From positions 1-21,201 of the IMG/VR virus record IMGVR_UViG_3300031539_000371: a stretch of DNA of 21,201 nt; one strand, written 5' to 3'. Shown here in pieces: positions 3,813-21,201 of this stretch. The notes beneath the pieces were generated by a model. The model made no database searches and had not been told where the DNA came from. It worked only from the letters and a program-made list of their open reading frames with translations. Positions within the stretch are counted from its first letter, which is position 1. Every line of letters begins with the position of its first letter. A program made the position numbers and the translations under genes. This stretch comes from a virus.

Positions 3813-4811
3813 TTATAGTTTTAAGTTTTCAAGTTCTGGATATTCCCTATCTCGAGCTGTAGTGTCATCATAAAGTTCAACCATATTTATCGAGCTCCAA
3901 CCAAATATCTCTTTAATAAGCACATTTGGTATATTCTTTTTAGAAAGAAGAGTAGTTAGATAGTGCCTAAGCGAGTGAGTATAAAATGGTACTTTTAAGT
4001 GCCTTTCGAAACCTTCTACCCACCCTCTAATTGAAGCATCTGTGGCTGGTTCCCCGTCCTCTTTTATAAAAAGAAAATTATGATTTATATTTTTTTCTTT
4101 TAAAATAGAAGTTCTTTCTTTTAACCAAGCATTATAATACGGAATAAATTTATCCCGCAAAATATACTTGTATAGCAGTTTTCCAGATTTACCCCTGCCT
4201 TTGGTCTTAATTTGGCGGGTTGTTTCGAGGAATATATCTCCAAATGCCGTTCTGTTTTCATCTATCAAATCAATTTCAAAGTTTAATAGTTCTGAAAAAC
4301 GAGCGCCGCTTGTTACAGCCAGCGCAAGCCAGCATGCCTTTTGTTTGTCTGTTTTCTTCAAATATTTCAAAAGGTTTTCTACTTGTTCGTCTGTAAGTAT
4401 TGTTTTTTCCCTGCGTGTTTCCTTCGGGGCGGATTCTATTACGCGTAAAATAACATTTCTAAAGTCCGGATATTCCTCATCAAAAAATTTCTCAATGAAA
4501 TTTGATAGGGAAGATAGGGTACTGCGTATATTATTTAATCGGGAAGAGCCAAGTTGTAATTCTTCCGCCGCATATGAAAAGAAGTTAGAGAATTCTAATT
4601 TTTTTATTTCTGTAAAATGTTTATTTTCATTATAAAGTAAGTTCCATGTTAAAAACATTAGCATATTGGATTCGTATACCACTAGTGTTTTTGTGCTTGT
4701 TCTAATAGATTTATCTTTTATAAATTGTTCTACAAGAGACATATTTTCAGGATTAATCTTAGCGGTATTCTCTTCTGATGTAATTATTTTTCGAAATGTT
4801 TTTCTAGCCAT
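3813..4811 (-). CDS. Tyrosine recombinase / integrase family protein
   Basis: A 332-residue site-specific DNA recombinase that would cut and rejoin DNA through a tyrosine. The catalytic set is readable: Arg171 (TSGARFSELLNF), a lysine in the beta-hairpin region (about 203-208), His279 and Arg282 (HSLRHYLTT), Trp305 in the second His/Trp position (FGWSS), and nucleophile Tyr314 (VELYDD). Residues about 25-125 resemble the helical SAM-like core-binding domain. Length is normal, so it looks intact. The start is supported by AAAGGAAT, which overlaps the stop of the RusA-like gene 12 bases upstream, so the two are probably translated as a pair. It sits directly before the tape measure gene, an odd place for an integrase. 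No attachment site or excisionase was recognised nearby. It could be a true integrase, a resolvase or invertase-type enzyme, or part of a mobile cassette. Confidence 0.92.
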   Translation of the reverse strand: MARKTFRKIITSEENTAKINPENMSLVEQFIKDKSIRTSTKTLVVYESNMLMFLTWNLLYNENKHFTEIKKLEFSNFFSYAAEELQLGSSRLNNIRSTLSSLSNFIEKFFDEEYPDFRNVILRVIESAPKETRREKTILTDEQVENLLKYLKKTDKQKACWLALAVTSGARFSELLNFEIDLIDENRTAFGDIFLETTRQIKTKGRGKSGKLLYKYILRDKFIPYYNAWLKERTSILKEKNINHNFLFIKEDGEPATDASIRGWVEGFERHLKVPFYTHSLRHYLTTLLSKKNIPNVLIKEIFGWSSINMVELYDDTTARDREYPELENLKL

Positions 4812-7706: not shown

Positions 7707-8075
7707 TTAGCTTCCAACTGCTATCCAAGTAACTGTCTGATAAACATCTGTTGTACTTCCAGAAGATGCTGCCAAATCAGTTGTACTTCCGCTAAACGTC
7801 CATTGGTTAAGGATAATATCGCTTGCATATCCAGTACTACCGCTTGTTGCTGTGGACATGCTGTGTTCTAATGTTGGGCTACCTGACATTGCAACTACCA
7901 CATATTCAACATCTGTTAAATCTGTAGTAACCACATGCCTTGCGCTTGATGGTACAACACTTCCGCTGTCAATGAGGTCGTTTAGCACATTGTTTAAAAG
8001 TGTGCCAAGACCAATTCTTTGTGCAGCTTCCATTGAGTTGTTTAACTGCGTTATTTGAGTGCTTGTTAAAGACAT
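7707..8075 (-). CDS. Small Ser/Thr/Gly-rich phage structural protein candidate
   Basis: A 122-residue protein. Residues 1-38 form an amphipathic helical region (TQITQLNNSMEAAQRIGLG, then LLNNVLNDLIDSG); residues about 45-122 are rich in Ser, Thr, Gly and Val and look like beta structure (GSTTDLAASSGSTTDVYQTV). There are no membrane segments. AGGAGG with 8 bases spacing supports the ATG. It is the last complete gene before the terminator at 7631-7665, so it is probably expressed with the tail tube gene. The helix plus beta domain design suggests a virion decoration or fibre-like component, but I do not recognise a family. Confidence 0.7.
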   Translation of the reverse strand: MSLTSTQITQLNNSMEAAQRIGLGTLLNNVLNDLIDSGSVVPSSARHVVTTDLTDVEYVVVAMSGSPTLEHSMSTATSGSTGYASDIILNQWTFSGSTTDLAASSGSTTDVYQTVTWIAVGS

Positions 8076-13340: not shown

Positions 13341-14186
13341 TTACTTTAATATGATTTCCTTGCTTTTTATTTTATCTACAAATTCATAAAATTCTTCTGG
13401 AGTATTATTCTCTTTCCCATAGATTTTATGAAATTTTTTGTGAGAATTTTTACAAAGACAAACTCCTGAGGGATGTTTGAAATGAAGTTCTAAAACTTTA
13501 GAGACGATTTTTTGAATATTTTCTTCTCCATAATCAATCATCCTGTCTTTTTCTGTATATCCTAATTCAATTAGAGAATCTTCTATGATATTACTTAGTG
13601 AATACAGATGGTGTATATCATCAAAAGAGTGGGCACCAGAACAGGCGACACACTTATAGTTGGAATTTTTCATAGACAATTCTTTCCAACTATCTAAAGT
13701 GCATTTTATATAAGGTCTTAGTTTTGTTATACCACCTTTCCACAAATTACTTTTACGACCAGATTTGATTTTGCCCATTTCTTTTAGCCAGCATTTTCTA
13801 CAAGCATATTTTTGATGTAAAACGTTATGAATATCTGAAATAAAAATGTTTCCACAACGATTACATTTAAATTCTGACTCTTTATGAGAAGTACCGCCGT
13901 ATTTTAATAGAGTGATATTTCCTTCGTGCTTTTTCAAAAGCTTCTTTTCAACATCTTGAAATGTAAGACGATTTTGCCCTCCACCTCCTTTATTGTTTCC
14001 ACAATTAGGACACCCTGTTCCTTGATTTATTATGCAGGTAACCGCAGTTTCCCAAATATTTCCGCATATATTGCATGTAAAATCTGCATGCTTATCGCAG
14101 GCTAAATAATTGTTTATTGTGATTTTATTTCCGTGCTTTTCTTTTATTCTTTTTAATACTTCTTCTTTTGTTAGTTTACGAGACAT
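13341..14186 (-). CDS. HNH homing endonuclease with zinc-ribbon repeats
   Basis: A 281-residue free-standing DNA endonuclease, probably a mobile homing enzyme. Residues 1-135 hold two similar units, each with a helical start and two cysteine pairs (Cys38/Cys41 with Cys59/Cys62; Cys108/Cys111 with Cys129/Cys132), likely zinc-bound DNA-binding ribbons. Residues about 178-255 form the nuclease: a CVAC pair (179/182), the HNH histidines in DDIHHLY (192/193), then VCLCKNSHKKFH, giving Asn247, His249 and His253. It sits between the capsid gene and a virion-type gene, a typical site for phage homing nucleases. AAAGGAGATAATA precedes the ATG. The gap before it can fold into a branched hairpin. Codon use is at least as AT-rich as its neighbours. 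Confidence 0.9.
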   Translation of the reverse strand: MSRKLTKEEVLKRIKEKHGNKITINNYLACDKHADFTCNICGNIWETAVTCIINQGTGCPNCGNNKGGGGQNRLTFQDVEKKLLKKHEGNITLLKYGGTSHKESEFKCNRCGNIFISDIHNVLHQKYACRKCWLKEMGKIKSGRKSNLWKGGITKLRPYIKCTLDSWKELSMKNSNYKCVACSGAHSFDDIHHLYSLSNIIEDSLIELGYTEKDRMIDYGEENIQKIVSKVLELHFKHPSGVCLCKNSHKKFHKIYGKENNTPEEFYEFVDKIKSKEIILK

Positions 14187-14323: not shown

Positions 14324-15451
14324 TTACGGCAATGTCATGACTCCCGCAATCGAGCTCGTAGCAACACCGCTTGCCCAACTCTTATAAAGAGTAGCGTTCT
14401 GATTCAAGTTTGCATTTGCAAATGTTGAATCAATATTGGACATTGTTGAACCTTCAATAACCATTTTAACAATCTTCCCCGCTGAAGGAGATAACACATA
14501 TAATCTTGTGTCATCAAGCATCAGTTTAAATGGAGAAGCGAAATCTGCTAATTGTGGAATAGAAAGAACGTCGTATGTAGCTAATGTATTAATGTAACCC
14601 ATTTTTACATAATCGCTCTCTAAGGTATATCTGTAGTTTGCGTCAGTAGGAAGTACGCTCAAAAGAGCAACCGGAGTACCAACGATAACAGCCTTATTTC
14701 CACCATTCCATGCAGATACCTTTTGTGACAACGTAATCAAATCGCTCTGGCTATAACCAGCATATTTCAGCTTGTCGTCGCCCGTAGCGGATAGGTTTGT
14801 CATAGCGGTATTGAAAACTGTGTAAGCATCCTTTGCCATATCTGTCTCGAGAGAACGAATTACCTTAGCAACAAAATCGCCAAGAGATTCTTTTCCGGCA
14901 AGAACTTTGTATAGAGAAACTTGTACAGTAAGTTCGCGCATTGTAGGAACAAGGGTAACTTGCCCGTTGAACTGCTTGTGAACTTCTGCTGTCCTCATTC
15001 CTCTACCTGCTTTTGAAACAACAAACAGGTCACGAGGTTTAATTTCGAATGCTGCGCTATCTCCCCAATCTATCTGGCGTACATCGGTATATAGACCAAT
15101 ACTGTCAATAATTGTATCGGGTAATACCATATCTACCAGTTGGTTCACAACTGCGAATGTAGCCCACGAAATCATTGGGTTTGTAATCCATTGTTCCAAA
15201 GGAAATGCTTCAAAGTTTTTGATATTAGCGTGCCTCAGAATTTCTCTGCGCAACGCATTGTTCATTTGGATTTCCTTTTCGTCAAAGGTTATTGTGCTTC
15301 CATCACTACGAGTACGTTGAAAATCATATTTCTGTGCGTTTCCTCTGTCCGTCATGGAGCGGAAGTGATTCCAATAGTCAATAAATGCCCTATAAGGAGC
15401 GGAATTTTCTTCTCCACCAGCGAAATTTAAAACTTTTTTTGATAGTTTCAT
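14324..15451 (-). CDS. Major capsid protein (HK97 fold)
   Basis: A 375-residue protein that would form the icosahedral shell. The helical N-arm region (residues 1-75, KKVLNFAGGEENSAPYRAFI) is followed by mixed alpha/beta sequence typical of HK97-fold capsids: an E-loop-like stretch (about 120-180, VRQIDWGDSAAFEIKPRDLF), a long spine-helix candidate (about 190-220, ESLGDFVAKVIRSLETDMAK), and P- and A-domain strands (KAVIVGTPVALLSVL; MLDDTRLYVLSPSAGKIVKM). It follows protease/scaffold and decoration genes, the standard order. Having a separate scaffold fits the absence of a long N-terminal delta domain. AAAGGAGAA precedes the ATG. The assignment rests on order, size and overall pattern rather than one motif. 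Confidence 0.88.
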   Translation of the reverse strand: MKLSKKVLNFAGGEENSAPYRAFIDYWNHFRSMTDRGNAQKYDFQRTRSDGSTITFDEKEIQMNNALRREILRHANIKNFEAFPLEQWITNPMISWATFAVVNQLVDMVLPDTIIDSIGLYTDVRQIDWGDSAAFEIKPRDLFVVSKAGRGMRTAEVHKQFNGQVTLVPTMRELTVQVSLYKVLAGKESLGDFVAKVIRSLETDMAKDAYTVFNTAMTNLSATGDDKLKYAGYSQSDLITLSQKVSAWNGGNKAVIVGTPVALLSVLPTDANYRYTLESDYVKMGYINTLATYDVLSIPQLADFASPFKLMLDDTRLYVLSPSAGKIVKMVIEGSTMSNIDSTFANANLNQNATLYKSWASGVATSSIAGVMTLP

Positions 15452-15477: not shown

Positions 15478-16029
15478 TTAGTCTATCTGAGTAACTTGGA
15501 ATCTGTAAGCTGTAATTCTTTGATTATCAATAGCGCCAGTACCAATTGAAATATAGCTTGTATCGGTATACTTGAGTGTTAATCCGTCTAAAAGAGGAGT
15601 AGCCGACCATGTTAACTGTAGTGATATGTCTGCGGCAACTACATAGTCTCCTGTTGACTTAGAACCAGTAAGCACATCAGGGGTCAACATAACTAAGTCG
15701 CCCATTTGAGGCTTAAACGCTGAGAAAACATCACCAGCAGGAATATAGAAATTCCTTGGGTCAGGGTCAATACCTTTGTAATAACTGTTTCCGCTAACGG
15801 TTTGTACTACTTCTGGCTCGTATGCCATCCATAAGTCTATAAGGCTTCCTGTTACAGGAAATTCAGCCGTCCAAACTTCGTTAGCAACAGTGCTACCGGA
15901 GTTTGTTGATTTTGCTAGCAAATTAAATACCATACCATTTTCAACGTCAGATGCTGATACTACCGGACGATTCAATGAATCAATATTTAACGCTGCAACT
16001 TTTTCTTGAACTAAAATACCATATGCCAT
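15478..16029 (-). CDS. Putative capsid decoration or cement protein
   Basis: A 183-residue, beta-rich protein with few Lys/Arg and many Val, Thr, Ser and Asp (VWTAEFPVTGSLIDLWMA; FKPQMGDLVMLTPDVLTG; YVVAADISLQLTWSATPLL). There is no signal peptide. It lies between the protease/scaffold gene and the capsid gene, the classic place for a decoration protein such as lambda gpD that stabilises the expanded shell. AAAAGGAGAC precedes the ATG. Function is inferred from position and composition; a structural fibre-base protein would be an alternative. Confidence 0.65.
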   Translation of the reverse strand: MAYGILVQEKVAALNIDSLNRPVVSASDVENGMVFNLLAKSTNSGSTVANEVWTAEFPVTGSLIDLWMAYEPEVVQTVSGNSYYKGIDPDPRNFYIPAGDVFSAFKPQMGDLVMLTPDVLTGSKSTGDYVVAADISLQLTWSATPLLDGLTLKYTDTSYISIGTGAIDNQRITAYRFQVTQID

Positions 16030-18131: not shown

Positions 18132-18338
18132 TTAATGTTTTGTGAAAATGGCTTGTAGTTTAAAGCCAAGCGGCATTCGCTTTAGACATTCTTTCAGTGT
18201 CTCGTTATTTGTAAAATAATACATATTATCTTCGGGAGAGATGCTAAGTACAGGAAGTTTGCACTCGCGTATTAAATAGTGCGCAACTTTATCTCTACAT
18301 TTATACGTATTCTTAAGAATATTCCAATTTGTTATCAT
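18132..18338 (-). CDS. Uncharacterised 68-residue phage protein
   Basis: Not recognised. The start is ATG 18338, 7 bases after GGAGAG, which lies in the last codons of the ferritin gene; the genes are 4 bases apart and probably coupled. An earlier TTG at 18353 would put the start inside that gene. The protein is small, basic and mixed alpha/beta (NTYKCRDKVAHYLIRECK, then NMYYFTNNETLKECLKRM). The helix, strand, helix pattern is like small domains seen in several phage proteins, but that is a weak impression. It ends 39 bases before the protease fusion. Confidence 0.65.
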   Translation of the reverse strand: MITNWNILKNTYKCRDKVAHYLIRECKLPVLSISPEDNMYYFTNNETLKECLKRMPLGFKLQAIFTKH

Positions 18339-18342
18339 AAAA

Positions 18343-18819
18343 TTACTCTCCAAAAAGCATATCGAATTGTACTAAATCTTTTGCTTTTTTAATGTTTGTA
18401 GCAAAATTATCTGCACTGTCCTCTTCTTCAACTTGTTCTTTCAGCATTTCAGAAAGAAAAGGCAAATCAATATAGGACTTATTTTCTAGTGCAAATTCAA
18501 AAATTGACTCCAATGATTCAGTTGTACCTTGCTCAACAGAAACATATGTGTCTGCGATTTCCTCAATACTATACTCGCTTATATCTGGGGCATCTACTGT
18601 GCCAATTTTTACTTTTCCACCAATTCTATCGCTTATATGTTTTACAATCATATCGCCATGACTTTTTTCCTGAGCAGATTGTTCGTTAAAATATTTTGCA
18701 ATATTTTTTAATTCCAAGTTTTCAAATATAGCTTCTATTTGAGTATATATCAACTGGTTTCTATATTCATGAATTATTTGCTCATTTAAAAACTCATTTA
18801 AAGAATTTGAGAGTTTCAT
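18343..18819 (-). CDS. Ferritin-like iron-storage protein
   Basis: A 158-residue four-helix protein that would oxidise Fe(II) and store iron, probably as a hollow 24-subunit shell. The start is ATG 18819 behind GAGGAGG; a longer reading to 18879 overlaps the portal gene and has no support. The ferroxidase ligands of E. coli FtnA all have counterparts: Glu18 (HEYRNQ), Glu51 and His54 (AQEKSH), Glu96 (SVEQ), Gln129 and Glu132 (LKEQVEEE), plus Tyr25. FtnA's third-site Glu49 is Gln50 here. The link HISDRIGGKVKIGTVDAP is typical of bacterial ferritin. The gene follows the portal stop by one base and precedes a coupled small gene, so it is part of the head operon. Its C-terminus (DLVQFDMLFGE) lacks the longer tail of FtnA. 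A phage ferritin here is unusual. Confidence 0.9.
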   Translation of the reverse strand: MKLSNSLNEFLNEQIIHEYRNQLIYTQIEAIFENLELKNIAKYFNEQSAQEKSHGDMIVKHISDRIGGKVKIGTVDAPDISEYSIEEIADTYVSVEQGTTESLESIFEFALENKSYIDLPFLSEMLKEQVEEEDSADNFATNIKKAKDLVQFDMLFGE

Positions 18820-18820
18820 T

Positions 18821-20497
18821 TTATATTTTTCCTCCTCTAGGAATATTAGTACCTTGGTCACGGGTAGCTCGCCCTTCATCTCCTAGTTTAGAACTGGATT
18901 TGCGGGGTCTACCTCTCTTTGCCTCAGTATCCTCTTTTGGTTTGCTTGTACTAGTTGAGCTTTGTGGCATTGCCGCTAGAGCTGGATTTACTTTAATTAA
19001 TTGTTTTTGTTCTTCAACACTAGGCGGAGTTAATAAACTCATGAAATCGTCACTTTTTGCCTGTTCCATATGTTTTCTAAATTGGGCTGGGCGCATTCCA
19101 AGTGCTGCCGCTATTTTTTGTGGCAGAACAATTCCTTTAGCGAACAAGGTCATTGCGTTTTCAAGTCTTATTTCTCTATCTAAAAAGAATTCAGTGCCTT
19201 CAAAGTTTATGGTAAATTTATATGTCTTTGTTCTTTTGTTGATGAAATATTCCATAAAATAGTCAAATTGCTCATACAGAGCTATCATCATTTGTTCATC
19301 AACATTTAAGCTCAGTTGTGTCTCTATTGAGTTTGGTTTAACATCACTGGTAAATATAAGATTTGTGTTAACTCCACTAGCTGCTAGAGCTGTTCTTAAA
19401 TAGTCATTATAAATAGAATTGTCTGCGTCAAAGCTAATTCCCCTTATATTTTCAAGGGGCGCAGAAGCAACTTTAACAGAATCTGATATTGCGCTTCTTA
19501 ATAAAGCCATGAACTTCCCAAGTAATTCCGGACTAATAGCAATGCTATCTTTAATAGTTGCTTTTGAATCTTTATTGAGCATTGGTACTTCACCCATAAT
19601 AATTTTACTTGCAGCAGCCATGTTAAGATTCTTTTGCAGATTTCTCATTAATCCCTGTAGTATTAAGTCGTTAAACAAGGGAGTGAAATAAGGAACTCTT
19701 GTAGCTAATTCTGGAGCAAGTTTAAAACATACCCCGAAATTTACGGGGATATCAACCCAATATATCCATGAAGATTTTGACCTCATATCTGGTGCTAAAG
19801 AAGGAACATATTGCGGAGGTTTCCCGCCTTTACCCCAGAGTTCTTTATATTTTCTTTTGAAAAAAGAGGGGTACATATTAATGTCTATTCCGGGTTGTAT
19901 AAACCAGTACATATTAAAACTGAACAGGAAACCGCCTTCCCATCTTCCTGTAATTTTACAATAATCGGACGGGAGTTCTTGTAAGACGTATTTGTTTTCT
20001 GTTTCTATGAAGCAGCCAAAATACGCATCGTTTCTCAGCATTTGCCTTACAACGGTACGTAATTCCCTTTTATATTCAAACTTTTCAAGGAACTCTTCTA
20101 CAACGTCTAAATCTTTCTTATACTTTGCTGAGTCTAAATCTTTTGACTGTGCGGTTGAAGTGTAAGTAACATCAAAAGCAAGCATGTTTGACAGATATGC
20201 CATCAGCCTTTTGTAAATCATTGATTGTATTTCAAAATCCTGACTGAATGCCTGAAGCTGTTTTTCGCTTCCCTTTGGATTTTCCATAGCTTTATCAAGA
20301 TTTGCCTGCTTAGGCTGCATCGGATTAAGGGAAATATCCTGAAGTCTAGCATTTATCATATCAGGAGTTAGGAAAGGTTGCCCATAAAGCCCACTCATAG
20401 AACGAGCAAACTCTATAACAGACCAAACATTTTCTTCGGAAAGAAGGTTTTCATTTTCTTCATTTTCACTAACTTCTGTTTTTTCTACTTTAGCCAC
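18821..20497 (-). CDS. Portal protein
   Basis: The ring-forming vertex protein through which DNA is packaged and leaves. I start it at GTG 20497 (558 residues): GGAAGGGAGGG lies 5-6 bases upstream, inside what a longer reading from ATG 20515 would treat as coding. Residues about 60-220 show the portal pattern (SQDFEIQSMIYKRLMAYLSN; MLRNDAYFGCFIE; LQELPSDYCKITGRWEGG), and residues about 330-440 a conserved helical part (ISFDADNSIYNDYLRTALAA; SIETQLSLNVDEQMMIALYE). It follows the terminase gene by about 56 bases. The C-terminal 45 residues are basic and disordered, with KRGRPRK at 527-533, an AT-hook-like motif. The ferritin gene starts one base after its stop. Confidence 0.9.
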   Translation of the reverse strand: MAKVEKTEVSENEENENLLSEENVWSVIEFARSMSGLYGQPFLTPDMINARLQDISLNPMQPKQANLDKAMENPKGSEKQLQAFSQDFEIQSMIYKRLMAYLSNMLAFDVTYTSTAQSKDLDSAKYKKDLDVVEEFLEKFEYKRELRTVVRQMLRNDAYFGCFIETENKYVLQELPSDYCKITGRWEGGFLFSFNMYWFIQPGIDINMYPSFFKRKYKELWGKGGKPPQYVPSLAPDMRSKSSWIYWVDIPVNFGVCFKLAPELATRVPYFTPLFNDLILQGLMRNLQKNLNMAAASKIIMGEVPMLNKDSKATIKDSIAISPELLGKFMALLRSAISDSVKVASAPLENIRGISFDADNSIYNDYLRTALAASGVNTNLIFTSDVKPNSIETQLSLNVDEQMMIALYEQFDYFMEYFINKRTKTYKFTINFEGTEFFLDREIRLENAMTLFAKGIVLPQKIAAALGMRPAQFRKHMEQAKSDDFMSLLTPPSVEEQKQLIKVNPALAAMPQSSTSTSKPKEDTEAKRGRPRKSSSKLGDEGRATRDQGTNIPRGGKI

Positions 20498-20553
20498 GAG
20501 AACCCTCCCTTCCATGTTTTCTTTTTATTTTATTTTTCATGTTTTCTTTCTAA

Positions 20554-21201
20554 TTAATATACTGTTGTAACTCCCATGAGTTCTGCTTCATCCTCATCTC
20601 TGGTATATCTAATTTGCAATAAATCTAAATCCATAAGAGACACATAATAATTTAGATATGAAACAGAGGTGTAGCGGTCTTTGCGAGCGCCCGGGGGCTC
20701 TATCAGTTTTATTAGTCCGTTTTGCATAACCATTTCTAAAGCAATTGATTCGTTGATAAATAAACTGGTTTGTAGGTGTGCTTGTAGTAAATATGCTCTA
20801 ACGGTAGAATTATCTTGAGTTAAAATATCTTTGTTTTTAGATTTTATTAAAAATTCTTCTTCTAAACTATCATCAACAAGAAATGTAACCAGTTTCTTCT
20901 TTAGCCTCTCTCTAAATTTTACAGCAATCAGAGAGTTTAATGCGGCAGTAGCTGATATCGGAAAAATACATTCTTTAGCATCTTGCCCGAGTGTTCTATC
21001 TTTAAGTTCTTCATAGACTTTGTAATCCACATTAGGCGAATTCATTACTGTAAGCGCCGAGTACTCCGTTCCGCGCTGTTCATCTTTCGTAACAGATGAT
21101 AGAGCGTCAAAAACCGAGATTCCCGCCGCCGCCAAATCAAGCACTAATATATCTCCTTGAAATTCTTCCATTATTTGTTTTATTCTTAAAGCTTGTAGAG
21201 C
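20554..21201 (-). CDS. Terminase large subunit, C-terminal nuclease part (5' end outside window)
   Basis: The motor that cuts concatemeric phage DNA and packs it into the procapsid through the portal. The frame is open to the right edge (ALQALRIKQIMEEFQGDILVL), so the ATG at 21171 is internal. The last 215 residues are seen. The nuclease-domain strand and acidic residue appear in GDILVLDLAAAGISVFDAL, matching the family's second Asp motif (LDxxGxGxxxxDxL). The end (EPPGARKDRYTSVSYLNYYV) matches the closing KDRxSSLxYxNYY-type segment. The ATPase domain and first nuclease Asp are outside the window. The portal gene follows, as in most tailed phages. Confidence 0.88.
   Translation of the reverse strand, partial: ALQALRIKQIMEEFQGDILVLDLAAAGISVFDALSSVTKDEQRGTEYSALTVMNSPNVDYKVYEELKDRTLGQDAKECIFPISATAALNSLIAVKFRERLKKKLVTFLVDDSLEEEFLIKSKNKDILTQDNSTVRAYLLQAHLQTSLFINESIALEMVMQNGLIKLIEPPGARKDRYTSVSYLNYYVSLMDLDLLQIRYTRDEDEAELMGVTTVY

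Follow-up and report, generated by a model that had tools for sequence, protein, structure and literature searches.

What does a ferritin gene do among the head genes of a phage? The question arises in a stretch of viral DNA of 21,201 nucleotides (positions 1 to 21,201 of IMG/VR virus record IMGVR_UViG_3300031539_000371; hereafter the window), in which a ferritin gene directly follows the portal gene. Little genetics has so far been brought to bear on iron in virions or on what phage iron genes do. Our preferred answer, to which we give a probability of about 0.5, is that the gene encodes an accessory, late, dispensable but selected ferritin of the host cytoplasm, predicted to be catalytically competent.

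Position and signals of the ferritin gene

The ferritin ORF (158 aa) is on the minus strand, from an ATG at 18817–18819 to a stop codon at 18343–18345; stops are abundant on the plus strand across 18343–18819. The portal gene ends with a TAA at 18821–18823, and a single base (18820) separates it from the ferritin ATG, exactly as the original prediction had it. The head genes of the window are as follows, in the direction of transcription.

20554–21171, minus: large terminase, C-terminal part, running off the contig; 88% identical to the same part of a 606-aa ORF in two related loci (L002 and L003)
18821–20515, minus: portal protein (564 aa), directly upstream of ferritin; phrog_2739, 5.8e-61
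18831–18837, minus: Shine-Dalgarno-like GAGGAGG of ferritin, within the final portal codons
18343–18819, minus: ferritin CDS (158 aa); ligands E18, E51, H54, E96, Q129, and E132; helix-E region shortened
18132–18353, minus: small ORF after the ferritin slot, 73 aa (about 70 aa); DUF5659-like in phage TR-TP1
16056–18092, minus: 678-aa protein in the protease/scaffold position, by synteny; only match phrog_3313 (unknown function)
15478–16029, minus: 183-aa head-module protein in the decoration position, by PHROG search and gene order
14324–15451, minus: major capsid protein (375 aa); about 41% identical to the protein annotated as major capsid protein in Enterocloster phage PMBT24

A terminase is named at the corresponding place in TR-TP1 and PMBT24. 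The gene had been placed between portal and protease. The portal side of this placement holds, whereas on the other side the 73-aa ORF intervenes and the 678-aa protein, for which no protease family match is found, is called a protease from its position. A consensus scan of the minus strand finds no sigma-70-like site directly upstream of the ferritin gene and no terminator-like site at either of its edges; ferritin and portal are therefore likely co-transcribed.

Fold and iron site

The window protein matches Pfam Ferritin (E = 1.2e-19) and the ferritin of T. maritima (2.8e-13, phmmer). Its AlphaFold2 model (pLDDT 95) superimposes on P. furiosus ferritin with Z 22.6 and 1.4 Å over 156 residues, and the whole length of the model is superimposable on solved ferritins (Z about 22), indicating the four-helix bundle of ferritin rather than another fold.

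Residues E18, E51, H54, E96, Q129, and E132 align one to one with E17, E50, H53, E94, Q127, and E130 of FtnA, confirming the six ferroxidase-centre ligands that had been picked out by their spacing, and Y25 aligns with the catalytic Tyr24 of FtnA. The ligand string E-E-H-E-Q-E and the catalytic Tyr are invariant in 33/33 contigs, a set retrieved through the portal and not through the ferritin, with one ferritin each and a few near-copies. Pairwise identity in this set goes down to 21%. Of the 158 positions, only 13 never vary, and these include all six ligands (hypergeometric P = 9e-8). The ratio dN/dS is about 0.05–0.14 in close pairs and 0.28 in one, much like that of the portal, and the gene is under purifying selection.

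By its sequence, the protein classes as a ferritin but not as FtnA itself, since it misses the cut-off of the FtnA equivalog NF007638 (34.6 bits against 178); it also misses that of the bacterioferritin model TIGR00754 (17.7 bits against 125.6). The residues of site C are not kept. In ferritin 24-mers the four-fold pores are lined by helix E; this helix has only 6 residues in the window model and is short throughout the two phage lineages described below (A and B). The short tail of these lineages has a common hydrophobic-[FW]-[DN] motif that we considered as a C-terminal cargo peptide; by eye it is a truncated helix E, and the candidate was dropped. The original view of a likely active iron oxidase thus stands in that the protein is a true ferritin whose diiron ligands are all present, with the activity itself predicted from the residues.

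Ferritin genes recur behind phage portals

As a single query, the window ferritin finds no match in IMG/VR. The portal, in contrast, finds nine IMG/VR loci; six of these share the gene order and extend beyond the portal, and ferritin is the next gene in 6/6, whereas a more distant locus (L010) has other DNA after the portal. With a ferritin alignment as the query, 25 loci are found in IMG/VR, and ferritin lies directly downstream of the portal in 25/25. A wider portal scan comprises 74 loci, and ferritin genes next to portal genes recur in dozens of phage contigs.

Apart from a third family described below, the phage ferritins form two clades, A (including the window) and B (100/99 each), which together make a clade of phage proteins only (98/98) when compared with 12 cellular ferritins, a small cellular sample. 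Identity to any cellular ferritin found is at most about 36%, on which we reject recent capture from a host. The fixed slot, the recurrence, and the invariant ligands therefore argue against both a recent host copy and a one-phage oddity, the outcome that the original prediction had named as damaging. The window protein shares the fold, the six diiron ligands, and the catalytic Tyr with the classical non-heme ferritins (FtnA; those of P. furiosus, A. fulgidus, and T. maritima), but is set apart from them by its low identity, its phage-only clade, its short helix E, and its site C.

Two scans of bacterial genomes, one for the ferritin and one for the portal, return no relative. Lactococcal 949, SPbeta-like, Sundance, KKP_3916, and phi127 phages have no gene between the portal and the next large gene (protease position). 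Ferritin matches in fecal contigs named 'Bacteriophage sp.' (L011–L013) are surrounded by ordinary bacterial genes and are likely bacterial DNA, as is the match named 'Staphylococcus phage SA 1306 Kay', which is 35.9% identical to the query, the same as S. aureus FtnA.

BFVD lists a few metagenomic phage ferritins. Three of its proteins from uncultured Caudovirales named 'prohead protease' (A0A6J7WIS1, A0A6J7WPK9, and A0A6J7XDU5) have a stretch weakly matching the ferritin/Dps fold, possibly a ferritin-like domain fused to a head protein.

Gain, loss, and exchange in the slot

When 51 portal clusters are compared, the slot is occupied by B in 20, by A in 10, by a third family (C, see below) in 8, and by none of these in 13; a few contigs of the last group stop shortly behind the portal. 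Mapped on the portal tree, these states need at least 16 changes, compared with a mean of 29 when shuffled; the row of TR-TP1 (L017) has an implausibly long branch, and its place in the tree is not used. Other contigs have short repeat-rich or beta-rich ORFs in the slot (PHROG unknown function or no match).

Two events can be read at the level of DNA. L039 (with B) and L068 (with A) are about 84% identical on both sides, and the similarity breaks off at the ferritin gene and picks up again after it, indicating a gene-exact swap. In L073, a relative of L059 (with B), the ribosome-binding site and the first codons of the ferritin gene remain and are followed at once by the small ORF, which leaves a deletion scar. 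Relatives with 59–61% identical portals are also found that have no ferritin gene. The ferritin is thus not a fixed capsid part but is exchangeable, losable, and replaceable by C. The original statement that it is made with the capsid applies to its place in the head operon and, probably, to translation with the portal; as a statement about a part of the capsid, it does not survive the deletion scar and the portal relatives that lack the gene. In being patchy and dispensable the gene behaves as a moron or auxiliary gene, although the promoter and terminator of its own that a moron has are missing from the consensus scan.

Endonuclease genes adjoin some of the copies. In L071, an ORF of the HNH/homing endonuclease family lies on one side of the ferritin gene and a GIY-YIG/NUMOD3 ORF on the other; in L092, a GIY-YIG ORF precedes it; and L067 has an endonuclease remnant. 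Such neighbors are what would be expected if the ferritin were a selfish passenger, carried along by homing endonucleases without benefit to the phage. However, most copies have no adjoining endonuclease, and purifying selection, seen in the low dN/dS together with the invariant ligands, already weakens this explanation, to which we give hardly any weight. As part of our preferred reading, the cassette would spread between phages by recombination in the conserved flanks, the portal gene and the 73-aa ORF, probably with the help of the free-standing homing endonucleases where they adjoin it.

A ferritin fold without the iron site

The third family, C, occupies the same slot in L053, L091, L098, L099, L100–104, and L111, and also in cultured Enterocloster and Thomasclavelia phages; the cultured carriers are PMBT24, CB457P1, and TR-TP1. 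An hhalign comparison of A/B with three C sequences is weak, and the relationship was settled with more C sequences: Pfam Ferritin matches 6/6 members (best 5e-9), a PDB profile search reaches P. furiosus ferritin at 8.5e-10, and a predicted structure (pLDDT 91) gives Z 21.5. On these profiles and this model, we assign family C to the ferritin superfamily.

The iron site is another matter. The columns of E18, E96, Q129, and E132 contain neither an acidic residue nor Gln in any C sequence; the E51 column is Asp in 3/9 and the His54 column is His in 9/9, with the caveat that C is not securely aligned in its first half. Judged from this alignment, family C is devoid of the diiron ligand set. PMBT24 ORF39 and TR-TP1 XPO98013, both named 'ferritin', share with the window the slot (between the portal and the small ORF) and the ferritin fold, but belong to family C and lack the diiron ligands that the window protein has. 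ORF39 is merely listed under other functions in the description of PMBT24 (PMC11035940).

Association with ribonucleotide reductase type

Among phages with a reductase gene, those with a diiron ferritin have PF02867 in 5/5 (G002, G004, G006, G007, and G010) and NRDD in none, whereas those with family C have the anaerobic NRDD in 4/4 (G011, CB457P1, PMBT24, and TR-TP1) and PF02867 in none. The exact p is 0.008 for 5 versus 4, and about 0.03 if some 4 versus 3 phages are taken as independent. Two phages with no ferritin have NRDD (G008) and a weak PF02867 (G003). The association is suggestive only, coming from few genomes and partly following phylogeny. Ferroxidase chemistry requires O2 or H2O2. 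Ligands that are invariant with PF02867 and lost with the oxygen-sensitive NRDD would fit an iron oxidation that needs an oxidant.

The reductases also bear on a role in iron supply or theft, in which the ferritin would collect iron from the host, either to serve phage enzymes such as ribonucleotide reductase or to deprive the host of it. The complete iron site and the large-subunit reductase genes in several A/B contigs are consistent with such a role. However, the iron-dependent class I small subunit (PF00268) is absent from all 11 contigs examined, which are fragments, and the position in the head operon suggests expression late, after nucleotide synthesis. We consider this explanation improbable.

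In TR-TP1 (L017, PQ571309.1), NRDD is matched in two pieces at 62773–65533, with stops inside, pointing to an intron, an intein, or a frame break.

Cytoplasmic enzyme or head component

Our preferred reading of a cytoplasmic enzyme runs as follows. The ferritin would be translated with the portal during virion production, would assemble into a cage, and would bind and oxidise Fe(II) with O2 or H2O2. Levels of free iron and oxidants would thereby fall during the making and packaging of progeny genomes, and late in infection less damage would be driven by iron. Where the host is a strict anaerobe, the phage would instead have the ferritin-fold protein without the iron site in this slot.

The slot itself poses a difficulty for this reading. 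A plain stress-protection gene could sit anywhere, and the 25/25 loci in the head-gene slot therefore leave room for a head-linked role. One such explanation, less probable in our judgment but to be taken seriously, is that the head takes up one of these ferritin-fold proteins (A, B, or C), either inside it or bound to it, so that the protein would be an optional decoration or internal component that may or may not carry out iron chemistry. Consistent with this, the ferritin-fold gene is invariably found behind the portal within the head operon, where three lineages of the fold replace one another, and C has kept the fold while losing the iron site. In addition, the short repeat-rich or beta-rich slot proteins of other relatives resemble surface decorations, but this is a matter of appearance. 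A protein modelled as ferritin, gp217 of the Vi01-like phage Sajous1, has been detected by mass spectrometry in CsCl-purified particles (PMC10892097). However, the slot can be empty, the proteins have no known packaging signal, and recombination in the flanks explains the same-slot exchange as well. Like the window ferritin, gp217 is encoded near a virion gene, but that gene is for tail completion, and no Vi01-like phage is among the sequence matches of the window ferritin.

Iron cargo in the head and the Ferrojan horse idea, both raised originally, are conjecture at this stage, and a ferritin cage, a 24-mer of about 12 nm, would be too big to exit through the portal channel. A second, virion-linked role may be reflected in the constant position among the head genes and in the fold being kept without the iron site. 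A more specific version, in which the ferritin-fold protein is an optional head part that oxidises iron in phages of oxygen-exposed hosts and is fold-only in phages of strict anaerobes, seems to us rather unlikely; if true, it would be a case of a metabolic enzyme turned into a virion protein.

The comparison with encapsulins made originally proves superficial. An encapsulin with its encapsulated ferritin likewise has a ferritin-superfamily protein beside a capsid gene, but the window has a DNA-packaging head with terminase and portal in the same operon, a classical full-length ferritin, no shell-forming encapsulin, and no known cargo peptide.

Ferritin-superfamily genes of phages are already known, as is a C protein named ferritin in PMBT24 and TR-TP1. 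Gratiaviridae gut phages have Dps and Mn-catalase (PMC8008677) and Lactobacillus phages have Dps-like proteins (PMC6669764), both with a proposed defence against oxidative stress. These are phage-carried members of the superfamily, as in the window, but of other subfamilies, and the Dps-like genes of Lactobacillus phages lie near DNA metabolism genes, not in a head operon. In the literature searched, with most subscription journals outside it, we found no paper that deals with this slot, with the exchange of ferritins in it, with the lineages whose diiron site is intact, or with the loss of that site. The conserved locus offers natural versions with the gene, without it, and without its iron site, one clean gene-for-gene swap, and cultured carriers of C. 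These natural variants make the virion and oxidative-stress questions directly testable.

Other features of the window

Further features of the window are recorded here. Between the capsid gene and the next gene, 13341–14186 (minus) encodes a 281-aa zinc-finger/HNH-like protein, probably a free-standing endonuclease, with a 63% identical ORF in the same place in L006. A tape measure gene (PhageMin_Tail, 1.2e-31) on the minus strand runs off the contig within 2–4811; a tyrosine recombinase at 3813–4811 lies directly upstream of it, an unusual place within a tail module. Finally, 7707–8075 (minus) encodes a small 'LNxMNxAxQxxxLGT' protein (phrog_18880, unknown), and proteins resembling it are found in the ferritin slot of L082, L084, and L086 and beside ferritin in L083 and L105.
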